Assembly: GCA_016192075.1 (NCBI GenBank)
Contig: JACPUU010000012.1
Coordinates: forward strand, 558,001-622,000
Direction of reading: 5' to 3'
DNA: 64,000 bases
Origin: Bacteroidota bacterium
GTDB lineage: Bacteria > Bacteroidota > Bacteroidia > Flavobacteriales_D > Crocinitomicaceae
The notes under the pieces: generated by a model
The model's input: the letters and a program-made list of their open reading frames with translations, nothing else
What the model was told of the DNA's origin: nothing
The model's database searches: none
Shown here: piece by piece, positions 20,129 through 24,938 of the stretch
Numbering within the stretch: position 1 is the first letter of the stretch
Layout of the letters: each line of letters opens with the position of its first letter
Position numbers and translations under genes: made by a program

Positions 20129-20578
20129 TTAGTTTTGTTTATACTTCACTCGAATGGCTGACCGGGTGGCAATTTCAGCATCCGGCCAAAAATCAGCAAT
20201 CAGGGTTTGAAACTGTTCATCTGAATCAGAATAACCCTGGGCATGAATAAAATAAACAGAGGGTGCTGTCAGTTTTTTCTGACGCCAGACCATGTTGACT
20301 GAAATAGCCAGGTTAGGATCATAATCAGTAACAGCATCGGTTAACGTATCAACGATTTCATAATAAGTTTCCATCATTTTTAACGTATCAATGGCAAAGA
20401 GGAGTTGCCCGTTGAAATAGCTGTGCATTTCTTCCAGGGTAAATTCACTGACCAGTGTTTTTGTCAGGAATAGCTTAGCTTTCTTGTGCTCTTCTTCGTT
20501 CTGCGCTTTAGCTGATTGGTAATAAAGCGCATACCACACAAAAGGAGATTCCATGTTGGTGAATTGCTGTTTTTCCAT
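20129..20578 (-). CDS. Hypothetical cytoplasmic protein
   Basis: 149 residues without a signal peptide or membrane segment. It appears alpha-helical at the N-terminus (ESPFVWYALYYQSAKAQNEE) with a beta-rich C-terminal third (VNMVWRQKKLTAPSVYFIHA). No family recognised. It stands alone between clpC and the desaturase operon on the minus strand. Confidence 0.7.
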   Translation of the reverse strand: MEKQQFTNMESPFVWYALYYQSAKAQNEEEHKKAKLFLTKTLVSEFTLEEMHSYFNGQLLFAIDTLKMMETYYEIVDTLTDAVTDYDPNLAISVNMVWRQKKLTAPSVYFIHAQGYSDSDEQFQTLIADFWPDAEIATRSAIRVKYKQN

Positions 20579-20716: not shown

Positions 20717-21499
20717 TTAAAATGTTGATCGTTTTTTCAATCCGGGTAATGCCTGATCAATACGTTTTGCCAAAGCCGGCAATTTGATTGTCGGAACCGC
20801 AGGAAACAAATGATGCTCCATATGATAAAACATATTCATTGTTATACGGTTTTTCCATAAACTGCGCTGTGTACGTGCCAATAGTGGATCGTCAGATGTA
20901 TCGTGATGAACGGTCCATACTGCAAAAAACGCAGTCATAAACTCAGCTGCTACCATCACAAGAATGTGGTAAATGAGAAAATCAAGCCGAAAGAAAAATG
21001 CTGTTATTATGAATATCAGTATAGCAACTAATTCTATCCATGTATTTAACCGATAACTCCAATTTGCATAACGCAACGTTTTTACATGAATCTGAAAAAT
21101 GTGGACAGGGCCATAGCACAGAGCTTTAAACCATTTCATACATGCAACTTTGCCTTCATAATCATTTTCTTTCAAACAGAATTTATGGTGACGCAAATGA
21201 TTGTATTTGACAGCATGAGTAGCGGCCATCATTAAAACACTGTTACTAAACAGAACAAACCATGTCACTCGTTTTCCAACGCCCAAAGCATTGTGAAACC
21301 CATTATGAACCTGCCTGAGAGCTGCCAGAAAGAAAAAGAATGAAAACGGCAATGCCAGTAAATAATACTGATAATAAGCCAGCATTAGCGAAATTCCAAG
21401 CCAGGGAACCGTTACGTTCCCTTCTACAAAACACTCCCACCGGGTGAGCCTGGTTAAATCTTTCCACACCACCCTTTTTACAATTTCTACCTGTGTCAT
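20717..21499 (-). CDS. Membrane fatty acid desaturase
   Basis: 260 residues with several membrane segments. The three His boxes of membrane di-iron desaturases are present: HNGFH (65-69), HLRHH (101-105) and HMEHH (226-230), plus an extra VHHD at about 197-200. It should introduce a double bond or hydroxyl into acyl or related lipid chains at the inner membrane. It is the last gene of a four-gene leftward operon, five bases after the TIGR01777 gene, under the predicted GbsR-type operator at 23232. Substrate not deducible. Confidence 0.92.
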   Translation of the reverse strand: MTQVEIVKRVVWKDLTRLTRWECFVEGNVTVPWLGISLMLAYYQYYLLALPFSFFFFLAALRQVHNGFHNALGVGKRVTWFVLFSNSVLMMAATHAVKYNHLRHHKFCLKENDYEGKVACMKWFKALCYGPVHIFQIHVKTLRYANWSYRLNTWIELVAILIFIITAFFFRLDFLIYHILVMVAAEFMTAFFAVWTVHHDTSDDPLLARTQRSLWKNRITMNMFYHMEHHLFPAVPTIKLPALAKRIDQALPGLKKRSTF

Positions 21500-21504
21500 T
21501 TTGC

Positions 21505-22419
21505 TTAGTTTTTAGTACAAACTATATGCTCAATTGCCGGTTTCAACGTTGCATACCTGAATTCAAATCCTTCGCTGACCAGTTTTGCTGGTATCACGTT
21601 CCGGCTCTTGAGTATTAACTCTGTTTCTGTTTGAATGATGCGTGCGCCAAATTCAAGCATGCATTTGGGCATTGGCAATCCAAAAGGTGCTTTTACCGCC
21701 TGACGAATGGTTTTCATGAGTTCTTTGTTGCTGACCGGTGTAGGTGCAGCCATGTTTACCGGTCCTTTCAGGTTGTCGTGCTCAATAATAAATTGAATAG
21801 CCCGTGCAAAATCATCTTCATGAACCCAGCTGAAAAACTGGTTGCCCTTACCCTGCCTGCCCCCCAGCCCCAGGCGCGCCAGATTTACCAGCGGTTTAAC
21901 GGCACCGCCTGTTTTACCCAACACAATCGAAATGCGCGCAGCAACCTGCCGGGTGTGTGGCAGCCTGAAATCAAAAAAGCACTTTTCCCACGCGGTGCAA
22001 ACATCCACTGAAAAACCGGTGCCAATTTCTCCTGAGGCTTCATCCATCTGCTTATCTTCAGAATGTCTGTAAATGGTTGCAGAAGCGCTGTTGATCCAGA
22101 TTTTTGGCGGATTCTGGCATTGCAGCAGCGCATTGCCCAAAACGGTGGTTGCATCAACACGTGAAGCCAGAATTTCTTTTTTGTTCTTTTCAGTGTACCG
22201 GCAATCAACTGATCGGCCAACCAGGTTCAGGAGCACATCGGCATCTTCAAGAATTGATTTCCAGGGTCCCTCGTTTTTTGCATCCCAGTTTTCATACCGT
22301 ATTCCCTGATCTGTGCGGCTTTTACCGCGACTCAGAATAATGACTTCATGCTGATTTGCAAAGTGGCGGCATAGGACCTTTCCCAGGAAACCGTTTCCGC
22401 CGGCTATAATAATTTTCAT
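21505..22419 (-). CDS. TIGR01777-family NAD(P)-dependent oxidoreductase/epimerase (SulA-like)
   Basis: 304 residues. An N-terminal Rossmann motif GGNGFLGKVL is followed by the extended SDR-like domain (WINSASATIY, SWVHEDDFARAIQF, GPVNMAAPTPV), then a C-terminal DUF1731-like segment (FGLPMPKCMLEFGARI). This domain order is characteristic of TIGR01777. The reaction is unknown for most members. In the operon it lies between the small membrane proteins and the desaturase, which hints at lipid or quinone modification. Confidence 0.92.
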   Translation of the reverse strand: MKIIIAGGNGFLGKVLCRHFANQHEVIILSRGKSRTDQGIRYENWDAKNEGPWKSILEDADVLLNLVGRSVDCRYTEKNKKEILASRVDATTVLGNALLQCQNPPKIWINSASATIYRHSEDKQMDEASGEIGTGFSVDVCTAWEKCFFDFRLPHTRQVAARISIVLGKTGGAVKPLVNLARLGLGGRQGKGNQFFSWVHEDDFARAIQFIIEHDNLKGPVNMAAPTPVSNKELMKTIRQAVKAPFGLPMPKCMLEFGARIIQTETELILKSRNVIPAKLVSEGFEFRYATLKPAIEHIVCTKN

Positions 22420-22439
22420 AAACCTGTTTTTAGTTTTGG

Positions 22440-22838
22440 TTATTCTGCATTTGGTAATATCATTCTTTCCAGGTTCTCCCGGTTTTGGGCTTCTCTCGCT
22501 TTCCGTTTACCGCGAAAGAAAAAACAGAGGTTCAGCAGGAGCATAATTCCCAGGTAAATGGAAAAACCACCCAGTTTATAACTCAATGCTTCAATCAATC
22601 CCTGGTAGCCCTGCAGGTTATTAATCTCCAGGATAAGCAAGGCAAACCCTATATTCAGCAGGTAAAATCCAACCTCAAAAAGTTTAGTGGTTGCCAGTGC
22701 AATCTCCTCACGGCCCCTGAAAATATCCAACATAAAAATTTTACTGTTTTTGAAAAGTATATGAGCCACGTAAAGGGTTAAACCAATGGCAATTGGCAAG
22801 TAAACAAGATACGCTTTAATAATCCATGATGATTCCAT
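22440..22838 (-). CDS. Small multi-pass membrane protein
   Basis: 132 residues, three or four membrane segments (for example AYLVYLPIAIGLTLYVAHIL, FYLLNIGFALLIL, IYLGIMLLLNLCFFF). It resembles the adjacent upstream 121-residue protein in length, segment spacing and the motif (F/Y)YLLN(I/L)G(F/Y), so the two are probably paralogues from a duplication. Ten bases separate the pair and 20 bases precede the TIGR01777 gene. Function unknown; possibly a two-component membrane complex. Confidence 0.8.
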   Translation of the reverse strand: MESSWIIKAYLVYLPIAIGLTLYVAHILFKNSKIFMLDIFRGREEIALATTKLFEVGFYLLNIGFALLILEINNLQGYQGLIEALSYKLGGFSIYLGIMLLLNLCFFFRGKRKAREAQNRENLERMILPNAE

Positions 22839-22848
22839 AATCGTAATT

Positions 22849-23214
22849 TTAGTTAGACATTGTCGTGTTTGTATGCCTCTGTTTTCTGCTGAAAAGAAGC
22901 AACCAGAAAAGATTTAAATAGTGCATAAGCGCCAGAAACAGAATGAGTGTGCCAGCTTTAAAAAAGAGCGTGCTGCACATTTGTTCAACGGTTTCTACTG
23001 GACTCCAGAAAGCAATATTCATGACCACATACCCCAGGTTGAGCAAATAATAGCCTGCCAGCAGGAGCTTGTTAATGGAAGCTACCAGGTGCGGGTCCTG
23101 CGGCAGCAGCATGTGAATATAAACCGCTCCGTTTTTATAAAATACCCGGCCCAGGTGAACCGTTATGATACTCATTGCAGTCAGAAAAAGAAGATAGGCG
23201 ATCAGGTTATACAT
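22849..23214 (-). CDS. Small multi-pass membrane protein, paralogue of its downstream neighbour
   Basis: 121 residues with about three membrane segments and the motif GYYLLNLGYVV shared with the downstream protein. The C-terminal segment LALMHYLNLFWLLLFSRKQR matches the partner's LLLNLCFFFRGKRK. First gene of the operon; its start lies 18 bases from the predicted regulator site at 23232-23253. No known family recognised. Confidence 0.8.
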   Translation of the reverse strand: MYNLIAYLLFLTAMSIITVHLGRVFYKNGAVYIHMLLPQDPHLVASINKLLLAGYYLLNLGYVVMNIAFWSPVETVEQMCSTLFFKAGTLILFLALMHYLNLFWLLLFSRKQRHTNTTMSN

Positions 23215-23231
23215 ATTTTTTATATTTCTAA

Positions 23232-23253
23232 ACTTTCAATATTTTTTGAAAGT
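23232..23253. promoter_or_regulatory. Predicted GbsR-type operator 1 (ACTTTCA-N8-TGAAAGT)
   Basis: ACTTTCA (23232-23238) and TGAAAGT (23247-23253) are perfect inverted repeats eight bases apart, immediately upstream of the membrane-protein/desaturase operon. The same half sites and spacing recur at 23844-23865 upstream of the regulator gene. Confidence 0.75.
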
Positions 23254-23316
23254 ATGAAGCAAATTTTTTTAGCGTTTCCTGTTCAGGTTATGGTATTTAA
23301 ATTTCTTATAAAATGC

Positions 23317-23817
23317 TTATTTGACGAGTTTCAGCAGGGTTTTATAAAACCAGTGTTCATCAGAGCGTATGAACTTGTCTACCACCCCGTCTGCCTTGGA
23401 AGTAAAGTCCGTCAGTTCACCTATCATGCGTTTAAACTCTTTGGTTTCGGCATCGGTTCCACTGGTGTTTTTAAGTTCATCAAAAACCCGCAGCATGGGT
23501 TCTATCTCCCGTTTTCTGCGTTCGCGCGCAATCTGGCGGGCCACTGCCCAGATATCTTTGTCTGCCACAAAAAACTCACGGCGCTCCCCTATCTTATTTT
23601 CTTTTGTTACAATGCCCCAGTCAATAAGCGCTCTTAAATTCATGTTCACATTGCCGCGTGACACCTGCAACTGTTCCATTATATCTTCGGTTGATACAGG
23701 CTCGGTTGATACAAGCAGCAATGCGTGAATCTGGGCCATGGTGCGGTTAATACCCCAGCTTGAGCCCAGCGCTCCCCACGATTGTACAAATTTCTGTCTG
23801 GCTTCTTCTAAATGCAT
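23317..23817 (-). CDS. GbsR/MarR-family transcriptional regulator
   Basis: 166 residues. A winged helix-turn-helix occupies about residues 25-90 (QIHALLLVSTEPVSTEDIMEQL, SRGNVNMNLRALIDWG, a wing with GERREFF). The order and length match GbsR-type MarR regulators. The helical C-terminal part (95-166) should mediate dimerisation and perhaps sensing. Identical inverted repeats upstream of this gene and of the following operon argue that it represses both. The ligand is unknown. The divergent CDF transporter gene starts 129 bases away and shares the intergenic region. Confidence 0.92.
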   Translation of the reverse strand: MHLEEARQKFVQSWGALGSSWGINRTMAQIHALLLVSTEPVSTEDIMEQLQVSRGNVNMNLRALIDWGIVTKENKIGERREFFVADKDIWAVARQIARERRKREIEPMLRVFDELKNTSGTDAETKEFKRMIGELTDFTSKADGVVDKFIRSDEHWFYKTLLKLVK

Positions 23818-23842
23818 GTATCAAATGTAAACACTATTTCTG

Positions 23843-23866
23843 AACTTTCAAATATTTCTGAAAGTT
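23843..23866. promoter_or_regulatory. Predicted GbsR-type operator 2 (AACTTTCA-N8-TGAAAGTT)
   Basis: Perfect 8-base inverted repeats with an 8-base spacer, 26 bases upstream of the regulator start at 23817. Same architecture as operator 1, which suggests autoregulation. It also sits about 70 bases upstream of the -7 box of the divergent CDF gene. Confidence 0.75.
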
Positions 23867-23945: not shown

Positions 23946-24938
23946 ATGTCTGCTCAAACCGACTTCACGCAACATAAACGGATGCTCAGCATTATATTGG
24001 TGGTGGGTATATTGCTGTTTTTTCTGAAAATATGGCTGTATTGGATTACGCAATCAAACGCCATTCTTTCGGACGCGCTGGAGAGCACGGTCAATGTATT
24101 TGCGGGCGCCTTTGCGCTTTACAGCCTGATTCTTGCCAACAAACCTTCCGATAAAAAACACCCGTACGGCCATGGTAAAATAGAATTCCTCTCAGCCAGT
24201 ATTGAAGGCGCTTTGATCATTGCAGCAGGACTAATCATTATTGTCAAATCCATTTACAACTTTTACAATCCGGCTCCCATTGAGTCACTTGAGTTAGGTA
24301 TTATTTTTACGTTACTTTCCGGTGGTGTTAACCTGCTGATGGGACTTTTACTGATCAACCGCGGTAAAAAAGTACGCTCCCTGCTGATGCGGGCCAGCGG
24401 TAAACACCTGATGTCTGATGCTTACACTTCGGCTGGTTTAATTATTGGCCTGGTCATTATTCACTTCACTGATTTGCTGTGGTTAGACGGTGTGGTAGCT
24501 ATTGTTTTTGGCGGAATCATCATTTATTCGGGCTACCAGATTCTGAGCGAATCCATTGACGGCATTATGGATGGCGCTGATTTTGAAACACTCGATAAAC
24601 TGGTCAATCACCTTCAAACGGTCAGAAAAGAGGACTGGATAGACATTCACAAAATGCGCATGATCAAATACGGCACATTTCTTCATTTTGATTGCCACGT
24701 AACGGTTCCGCGTTTTTATACCATTGAAGAGGGCCACGCGGTTATCGATAAAATAGAAGAAGAAATTGCGGCTACTTTCAACAACCAGGCTGAAGTGTTC
24801 ATTCATGTAGACGCCTGCATTCCAGCCTCATGCAAACACTGCCGGATGGAAAGCTGCGCTGTACGCGCTGTTCCACGAACTGAAGATTATTTCTGGAAAC
24901 TGGATACGGTGCTGGAGAATAAGAAGTACGGACTTTAA
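23946..24938 (+). CDS. Cation diffusion facilitator (CDF) family transporter
   Basis: 330 residues with six predicted membrane segments (starting at about residue 13) and the family signature HPYGHGKIEFLSAS between segments 2 and 3. Segment 5 carries HLMSDA (HxxxD metal ligands). In segment 2 the usual DxxxD position reads ExxxN (ALESTVNV), so metal specificity may differ from FieF-type exporters. The cytoplasmic C-terminal domain ends with CIPASCKHCRMESC, a cluster of four Cys likely to bind metal. Probably exports divalent cations by proton antiport. The start at 23946 is favoured by N-terminal length, but 23982 fits the promoter better. Confidence 0.93.
   Translation: MSAQTDFTQHKRMLSIILVVGILLFFLKIWLYWITQSNAILSDALESTVNVFAGAFALYSLILANKPSDKKHPYGHGKIEFLSASIEGALIIAAGLIIIVKSIYNFYNPAPIESLELGIIFTLLSGGVNLLMGLLLINRGKKVRSLLMRASGKHLMSDAYTSAGLIIGLVIIHFTDLLWLDGVVAIVFGGIIIYSGYQILSESIDGIMDGADFETLDKLVNHLQTVRKEDWIDIHKMRMIKYGTFLHFDCHVTVPRFYTIEEGHAVIDKIEEEIAATFNNQAEVFIHVDACIPASCKHCRMESCAVRAVPRTEDYFWKLDTVLENKKYGL

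Follow-up and report, generated by a model that had tools for sequence, protein, structure and literature searches.

A GbsR-family regulator and its paired operators in Bacteroidota: an operator at the regulator promoter and a promoterless, possible roadblock site ahead of a membrane-protein operon

The stretch of DNA analysed here (the window) comprises 64,000 nucleotides of a Bacteroidota bacterium of the family Crocinitomicaceae (assembly GCA_016192075.1, contig JACPUU010000012.1, positions 558,001 to 622,000), and our subject is a cluster of five genes within it, all on the minus strand, together with the two inverted repeats that accompany them. In the direction of reading, the genes code for a GbsR-type regulator of the MarR superfamily (166 amino acids; window positions 23317 to 23817), two membrane proteins, MP1 (an open reading frame of 121 amino acids; 22849 to 23214) and MP2 (132 amino acids; 22440 to 22838), an oxidoreductase of the TIGR01777 family (304 amino acids; 21505 to 22419) and a membrane fatty-acid desaturase family protein (260 amino acids; 20717 to 21499). 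These are the coordinates given in the original prediction, made from the sequence alone, which had also claimed that the palindrome ACTTTCA-N8-TGAAAGT occurs exactly twice. This is indeed so: operator 1 (op1; 23844 to 23865, minus strand) is an exact match upstream of the regulator gene, and operator 2 (op2; 23232 to 23253, minus strand) is an exact match between the regulator and MP1, 17 bases before the MP1 ATG. The two had been described as identical operators, which holds for the arms, but the 8-base spacers differ and op2 lacks a promoter.

The regulator had been predicted to be GbsR-type, and both its sequence and its predicted structure bear this out. A profile search of the PDB matched Mj223 (1ku9) at E 2.4e-24 over positions 3-152, and when the AlphaFold2 model (predicted local distance difference test score, pLDDT, 90) was compared with solved structures using Foldseek, 1ku9 was again the top match (E 3.9e-9), followed by 5jbr (E 1.2e-8). 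Mj223 is the usual template for GbsR proteins. The predicted monomer consists of an N-terminal winged helix-turn-helix and a C-terminal helical dimerisation part, and on the evidence of profile and model the protein is a member of the GbsR family. Neither curated score nor gene neighbours place it in the osmostress sub-group (GbsR/OpuAR/OpcR/YvaV/CudC): against the curated model for the choline regulator CudC it scored 44.8 bits, where the cut-off is 218, and Pfam and NCBIfam scans detected no choline or compatible-solute families among the window neighbours or the representative neighbours scanned.

Two tests of the operators had been set beforehand, namely that the motif should be infrequent elsewhere and that relatives with the same genes should keep it. 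In the genome to which the window belongs (4,654,694 bases), op1 and op2 are the only sites within one mismatch, with three for a reversed control pattern. When up to three mismatches are allowed, the window itself holds seven palindrome matches against 5.84 expected, so it is the perfect sites alone that stand out.

Relatives were collected by scanning genome contigs with MP2. This identified 78 named loci, spread over Flavobacteriales, Cytophagales, Chitinophagales and other groups, most with the regulator upstream, one operator before the regulator and one behind it. The window and the MP2-found loci, joined by those retrieved with the regulator protein and by 25 picked by operator pattern, form a set of 113 regulator loci (a locus whose regulator is cut by the contig end, L105, was left out of early regulator counts). 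Within two mismatches, op1 is present in 107 of the 113, compared with 5 of 2,260 dinucleotide-shuffled segments, and op2, sought near the regulator stop codon, in 85, compared with 6 of 2,260; the base-composition profile of op2 was drawn up at up to three mismatches, later op2 counts at up to two. To avoid circularity, the 25 pattern-picked loci were dropped from the main counts. The 88 protein-chosen loci that remain carry op1 upstream of the regulator in 84 cases and op2 after the stop codon in 73, and relatives with the same genes do therefore keep the operators. Reduction to one locus per 65%-identity cluster leaves op1 in 28/30 and op2 in 22/30. Among relatives of the same order and family as the window, the operator pair is also present where the operon genes differ (16 loci, with op1 in 14 and op2 in 10).

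Searches with the pattern only, using no protein, lead to the same genes. Across 149 genomes of the class, a composite of operator and promoter box occurs at 37 places, against four for the reversed pattern, and 21 of the 29 loci opened among them contain the regulator or the membrane-protein pair; for the bare exact palindrome this was so in 18 of 24 loci. A sample of the order and family (59 genomes, including the window's own) has the regulator in 18 genomes and the composite in 13, nine of these with the regulator, but as the control pattern gave three matches, single composite matches in this sample can be due to chance. On these sequence comparisons, we consider it close to certain that the pairing of operators and genes is conserved across Bacteroidota.

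The two operators differ in what surrounds them. Op1 is built into a promoter. In the window, a TTTG (23849 to 23852, minus strand) that corresponds to the consensus of the -33 element lies inside the promoter-proximal half of op1, this half-site providing the TTG of the element, and exactly 19 bases separate it from a -7 box, TACATTTG (23822 to 23829, minus strand). In the 113-locus set, a perfect TANNTTTG box is found mostly 13-15 bases past op1. Among the protein-chosen loci such a box follows op1 in 69/84 and op2 in 0/73 (21/28 and 0/22, respectively, among cluster representatives). The -7 box is described as occupying positions -12 to -5 relative to the start (PMC9723704), and transcription in the window is therefore predicted to start on the regulator ATG and to yield a leaderless mRNA. 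The 26-base gap of the window recurs in many loci, with the same predicted start. Leaderless mRNAs are reported to make up just 5.5% in F. psychrophilum (PMC9723704). From the promoter layout, the regulator mRNA probably begins at the regulator ATG.

Op2, in the gap between regulator and operon and downstream of the predicted start, has no promoter box in the window, and a perfect TANNTTTG sought from -60 to +44 around op2 was found at none of 85 sites. A different sigma box, TAnnTTG[CT] (given as motif SM5 in PMC9723704), was also tried and rejected, being near op2 at only 1 of the 85 sites. Op2 is instead accompanied by a run of nine or ten A/T bases, either an A-run or a T-run, at a fixed place upstream; in the window this G/C-free tract is AAAAAAATTT (23261 to 23270, minus strand). 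Among the protein-chosen loci, G and C are absent from the nine bases at -17 to -9 in 63/73 op2 sites compared with 22/84 op1 sites, and among cluster representatives in 16/22 compared with 3/28. Since the distance from tract to operator is fixed while the interval between op2 and the following ATG changes from locus to locus (0 to about 20 bases in most), the tract belongs to the operator. In Tenacibaculum-type loci (L071, L086-L089, L095 and others) the first gene of the operon starts directly at op2 with no gap, and the conserved bases after the palindrome therefore read as ATGAAA or ATGGAA. Twelve further internal operators of the promoterless form precede later genes in ten loci, none with a box within one mismatch, and across the 363 kb of operons scanned 92 of 96 operator sites are intergenic.

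Taken together, these observations lead us to favour, as slightly more likely than not, an explanation in which a GbsR-family autorepressor governs one transcript through promoter occlusion at op1 and a roadblock at op2. A regulator dimer would bind ACTTTCA-N8-TGAAAGT and control a single transcript that runs from its own gene into the operon. By covering the -33 element at op1, the regulator would exclude RNA polymerase from the only recognisable promoter and so limit its own synthesis; polymerase that escaped would read through the regulator gene, meet a second bound dimer at op2 and stop before MP1. The all-A/T stretch ahead of op2 might then provide a weak RNA-DNA hybrid in the stalled complex and favour release; a review (PMC10310618) describes how polymerase that meets a protein roadblock can stall, backtrack or terminate. 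Both sites would be freed by a ligand, probably a small hydrophobic or aromatic molecule, and the enzymes thereby induced would modify a compound associated with the membrane. The layout at op1 makes a strong case for the autorepression half, the block at the op1 promoter; the elongation roadblock at op2 we infer from the arrangement of sites, as we do binding, repression, ligand and substrate.

Several points weigh against this explanation. No op2 is present within two mismatches near the regulator stop in 15 of the 88 protein-chosen loci, and the loci are related, so that the counts are not independent and are inflated by kinship. The A/T tract could also have another purpose. Moreover, the tract in the window ends in TTTG, a near-match to the -7 box, making a weak start at op2 possible, and at 17 of the 85 op2 sites the bases from -15 to -8 differ from TANNTTTG in one place. 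These last two points would be expected under the main rival to a roadblock, an unconventional promoter at op2. In this view a further regulated promoter lies there, with the operator just past its start, and is recognised either by an alternative sigma factor or by way of a degenerate -7 box within the tract. The near-invariance of T at -10 and -9 of op2 (98 and 100%) is likewise reminiscent of a promoter element. However, in addition to the absence of perfect boxes around op2, G is present at position -8 in just 26% of sites, the tract alternates between A and T runs, and lone membrane-protein genes mostly have the ordinary form of operator plus TANNTTTG. We consider a second promoter improbable; without a recognisable box, op2 is unlikely to mark a further regulated start.

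The lone genes come from 13 genomes in which the membrane-protein pair has no adjoining regulator. Eleven of these genomes carry the regulator elsewhere, in ten cases with an operator at most 80 bases upstream of the separated gene. The lone pair is itself preceded by an operator and then a perfect -7 box in 7 of the 11 loci scanned, and the box is thus missing precisely where polymerase arriving from the regulator gene could transcribe the pair. When a further genome, G424, is included (14 in total), there are 15 composite sites, seven at the membrane-protein pair, five at the regulator and three elsewhere, against none for the reversed control. In G424 the parts are scattered: one palindrome lies near the membrane-protein pair, another near two small membrane proteins and a third near a TIGR01777 gene, while the regulator is on another contig, its best upstream site being weak (two mismatches, 159 bases away). 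Judged by these sequences, separated regulator and membrane-protein genes each tend to keep an operator.

Two further mechanisms would make use of the pair itself. In the first, the regulator holds op1 and op2 together and represses by looping out the roughly 570 bases between them, as two equal-armed sites at a fairly constant spacing (most 560-575 bases) might suggest. The spacing, however, tracks the length of the regulator gene, and the 33 different spacings that occur show no helical phasing (R 0.11-0.15 at periods of 10.4-10.6); looping also leaves the tract and the repeated modules at later genes unexplained. We have set it aside for want of phasing and regard it as distinctly unlikely. 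In the second, op2 acts in RNA as a hairpin before the start codon, being an inverted repeat that in most loci lies 0-24 bases ahead of the ATG. Yet of 29 representative op2 sites no more than 11 have complementary bases at pair 1:20, the distance that is fixed is that to the tract and not that to the ATG, and op1, with the same core, is upstream of the predicted start and hence outside the RNA. With one arm pair so often unpaired, the hairpin too was set aside, and we give it very little credence.

To return to occlusion and roadblock, some relatives repeat the promoterless module before later genes, and a more speculative proposal can be attached to this. The modules, each comprising an all-A/T tract, a fixed gap, the palindrome and a start codon, may be repressor-dependent terminators inside operons, the tract causing polymerase stalled against the regulator to fall off; copied to later gene starts, they would allow one repressor to set the output of each gene within one transcript while also closing the promoter. 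We put this forward tentatively, as a possibility with the odds against it.

What the operons encode is more variable than their control. In the window, MP1 and MP2 share about 24% identity (tblastn E ~1e-8), as remote paralogues, and neither of them belongs to a Pfam or NCBIfam family above its cut-off. MP2 is modelled with confidence (AlphaFold2 pLDDT 90) as three long helices, but a fold comparison with the PDB gave nothing below E 1.6 and a profile search of PDB sequences a single chance-level match. The TIGR01777 protein reaches the curated score of its family (275.7 bits; cut-off 207.35) and has a nucleotide-binding motif at its start, MKIIIAGGNGFLGK; it falls short of the curated score for the thylakoid protein ThyD (189.3 bits against 400). 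The desaturase matches PF00487 (53.8 bits; cut-off 29.7) and has all three histidine boxes (HNGFH at 65, HLRHH at 101 and HMEHH at 226), recognised by the family consensus. Behind it on the same strand is an open reading frame of 149 amino acids (20129 to 20578) that matches no Pfam or NCBIfam family. On the other side, a divergent cation diffusion facilitator gene (23946 to 24938) adjoins op1 and has no relative among the 78 MP2-found loci. A plasmid search with the window locus gave no match.

The families downstream of the regulator were named from Pfam and NCBIfam scans of single representatives. Across the 113 loci, membrane proteins occur in 68, a count inflated by the fact that 65 loci are the window or were found through one of these proteins, the TIGR01777 family in 67 and a small membrane family in 39; these are followed by an SRPBCC-like family (assigned by eye, with no Pfam hit; 32), DCC1-like (26) and DUF2071 (21) proteins, a methyltransferase family (9), desaturases (6) and the MBOAT family (6). 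In the 48 loci not found through a membrane protein, counts made by eye give TIGR01777 in 27 and the membrane-protein pair in nine. Gene content thus varies, TIGR01777 being common and the desaturase rare, and the four-gene unit with desaturase envisaged in the original prediction is not supported as a general unit. One operon (L237) has a tandem pair of TIGR01777 genes, and in another locus (L289, 730-1473) an operator precedes DUF2071-like and methyltransferase-like genes, by eye the same pair as in the operon of L106. It is plausible from the families present that the operons modify a membrane-associated or hydrophobic compound. The suggestion of a lipid or hydrophobic metabolite is in that sense retained, though unproven, and some lineages point towards menaquinone.

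The latter raises the question of whether the operon serves quinone or respiratory homeostasis and not fatty-acid modification, with a quinone or aromatic precursor as ligand, an alternative that concerns function and leaves the operator mechanism untouched. An operator, with a promoter-like box, precedes genes for aminofutalosine synthase MqnE in three genomes of one genus (g213), two of family f115 and genome G489 (L159, L161, L269, L282, L294 and L295), and MqnE passes its curated cut-off in both copies scanned. In three g213 genomes (L266, L267 and L268) a one-mismatch operator precedes a gene for 3-deoxy-D-arabino-heptulosonate 7-phosphate (DAHP) synthase, scoring 462.8 bits with NCBIfam in the one copy scanned (L266); MqnE and DAHP synthase are steps of menaquinone and chorismate synthesis, respectively. 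In one genome (L284, 1501-1543) a flavoprotein dehydrogenase gene follows a composite of operator and box at a distance of about 90 bases; by eye its product is NDH-2-like, but it passes the cut-off of no NCBIfam model. CydE, another GbsR-type protein, is reported to control a cytochrome bd operon (PMC6207618). Set against this, when 30 of 147 genomes matching MqnE were opened at that locus, an operator within two mismatches was present in four, while the other 26 had at least five mismatches (none within four), and MqnE was on this count rejected as a general member of the regulon. No MqnE match at E 1e-100 occurs in the genome to which the window belongs, the g213 regulators are just 37-39% identical to that of the window, and no quinone-synthesis family reached its NCBIfam cut-off among the representative operon proteins scanned. 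A quinone role for the operon at large thus seems unlikely, while the MqnE loci may represent a possible menaquinone branch of the regulon.

Overall, the observation in the original prediction is confirmed and its interpretation partly supported. In the open-access literature searched, we found no relevant account of this operon and operator system. With its recurrent operon, precise operator and defined promoter layout, the system lends itself to direct tests of ligand and function in Flavobacterium cultures, Flavobacterium terrigena being one cultured carrier, and should op2 prove to be a roadblock, the repeated modules would be a simple means of grading expression gene by gene in one operon.

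Among known systems, the closest solved structure by both sequence profile and fold is Mj223 (PDB 1ku9), an archaeal protein whose operator is described as unknown. CydE, the repressor of cydAB (PMC6207618), is likewise a GbsR-type protein outside the osmolyte branch and is tied to a quinol-using membrane enzyme, but it is proteobacterial, has another gene neighbourhood and has sulfate as its reported inducer. According to the 2018 survey of the family, gene neighbourhood gave no consistent picture for the Bacteroidetes members (PMC6207618); these are presumably the same regulators as ours, and the recurrent neighbourhood, operator and promoter layout given here go beyond that account. The Bacillus subtilis regulators GbsR and OpcR (gbsAB, opuB and opuC; PMC7396694) share with the present system a GbsR-type regulator and A/T-rich inverted-repeat operators, although the operator sequence differs and the spacing is 8 bases here compared with 4 for GbsR. 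They control osmolyte genes, of which there are none here; internal sites that repeat at later genes are a feature of the present system. For the B. subtilis pair, repression by GbsR is ascribed to a roadblock beyond the transcription start and that by OpcR to occlusion of the -35 region (PMC7396694). Both modes appear to be represented in our system, where, if op2 is a roadblock, a single regulator would join on one transcript what B. subtilis splits between two proteins.

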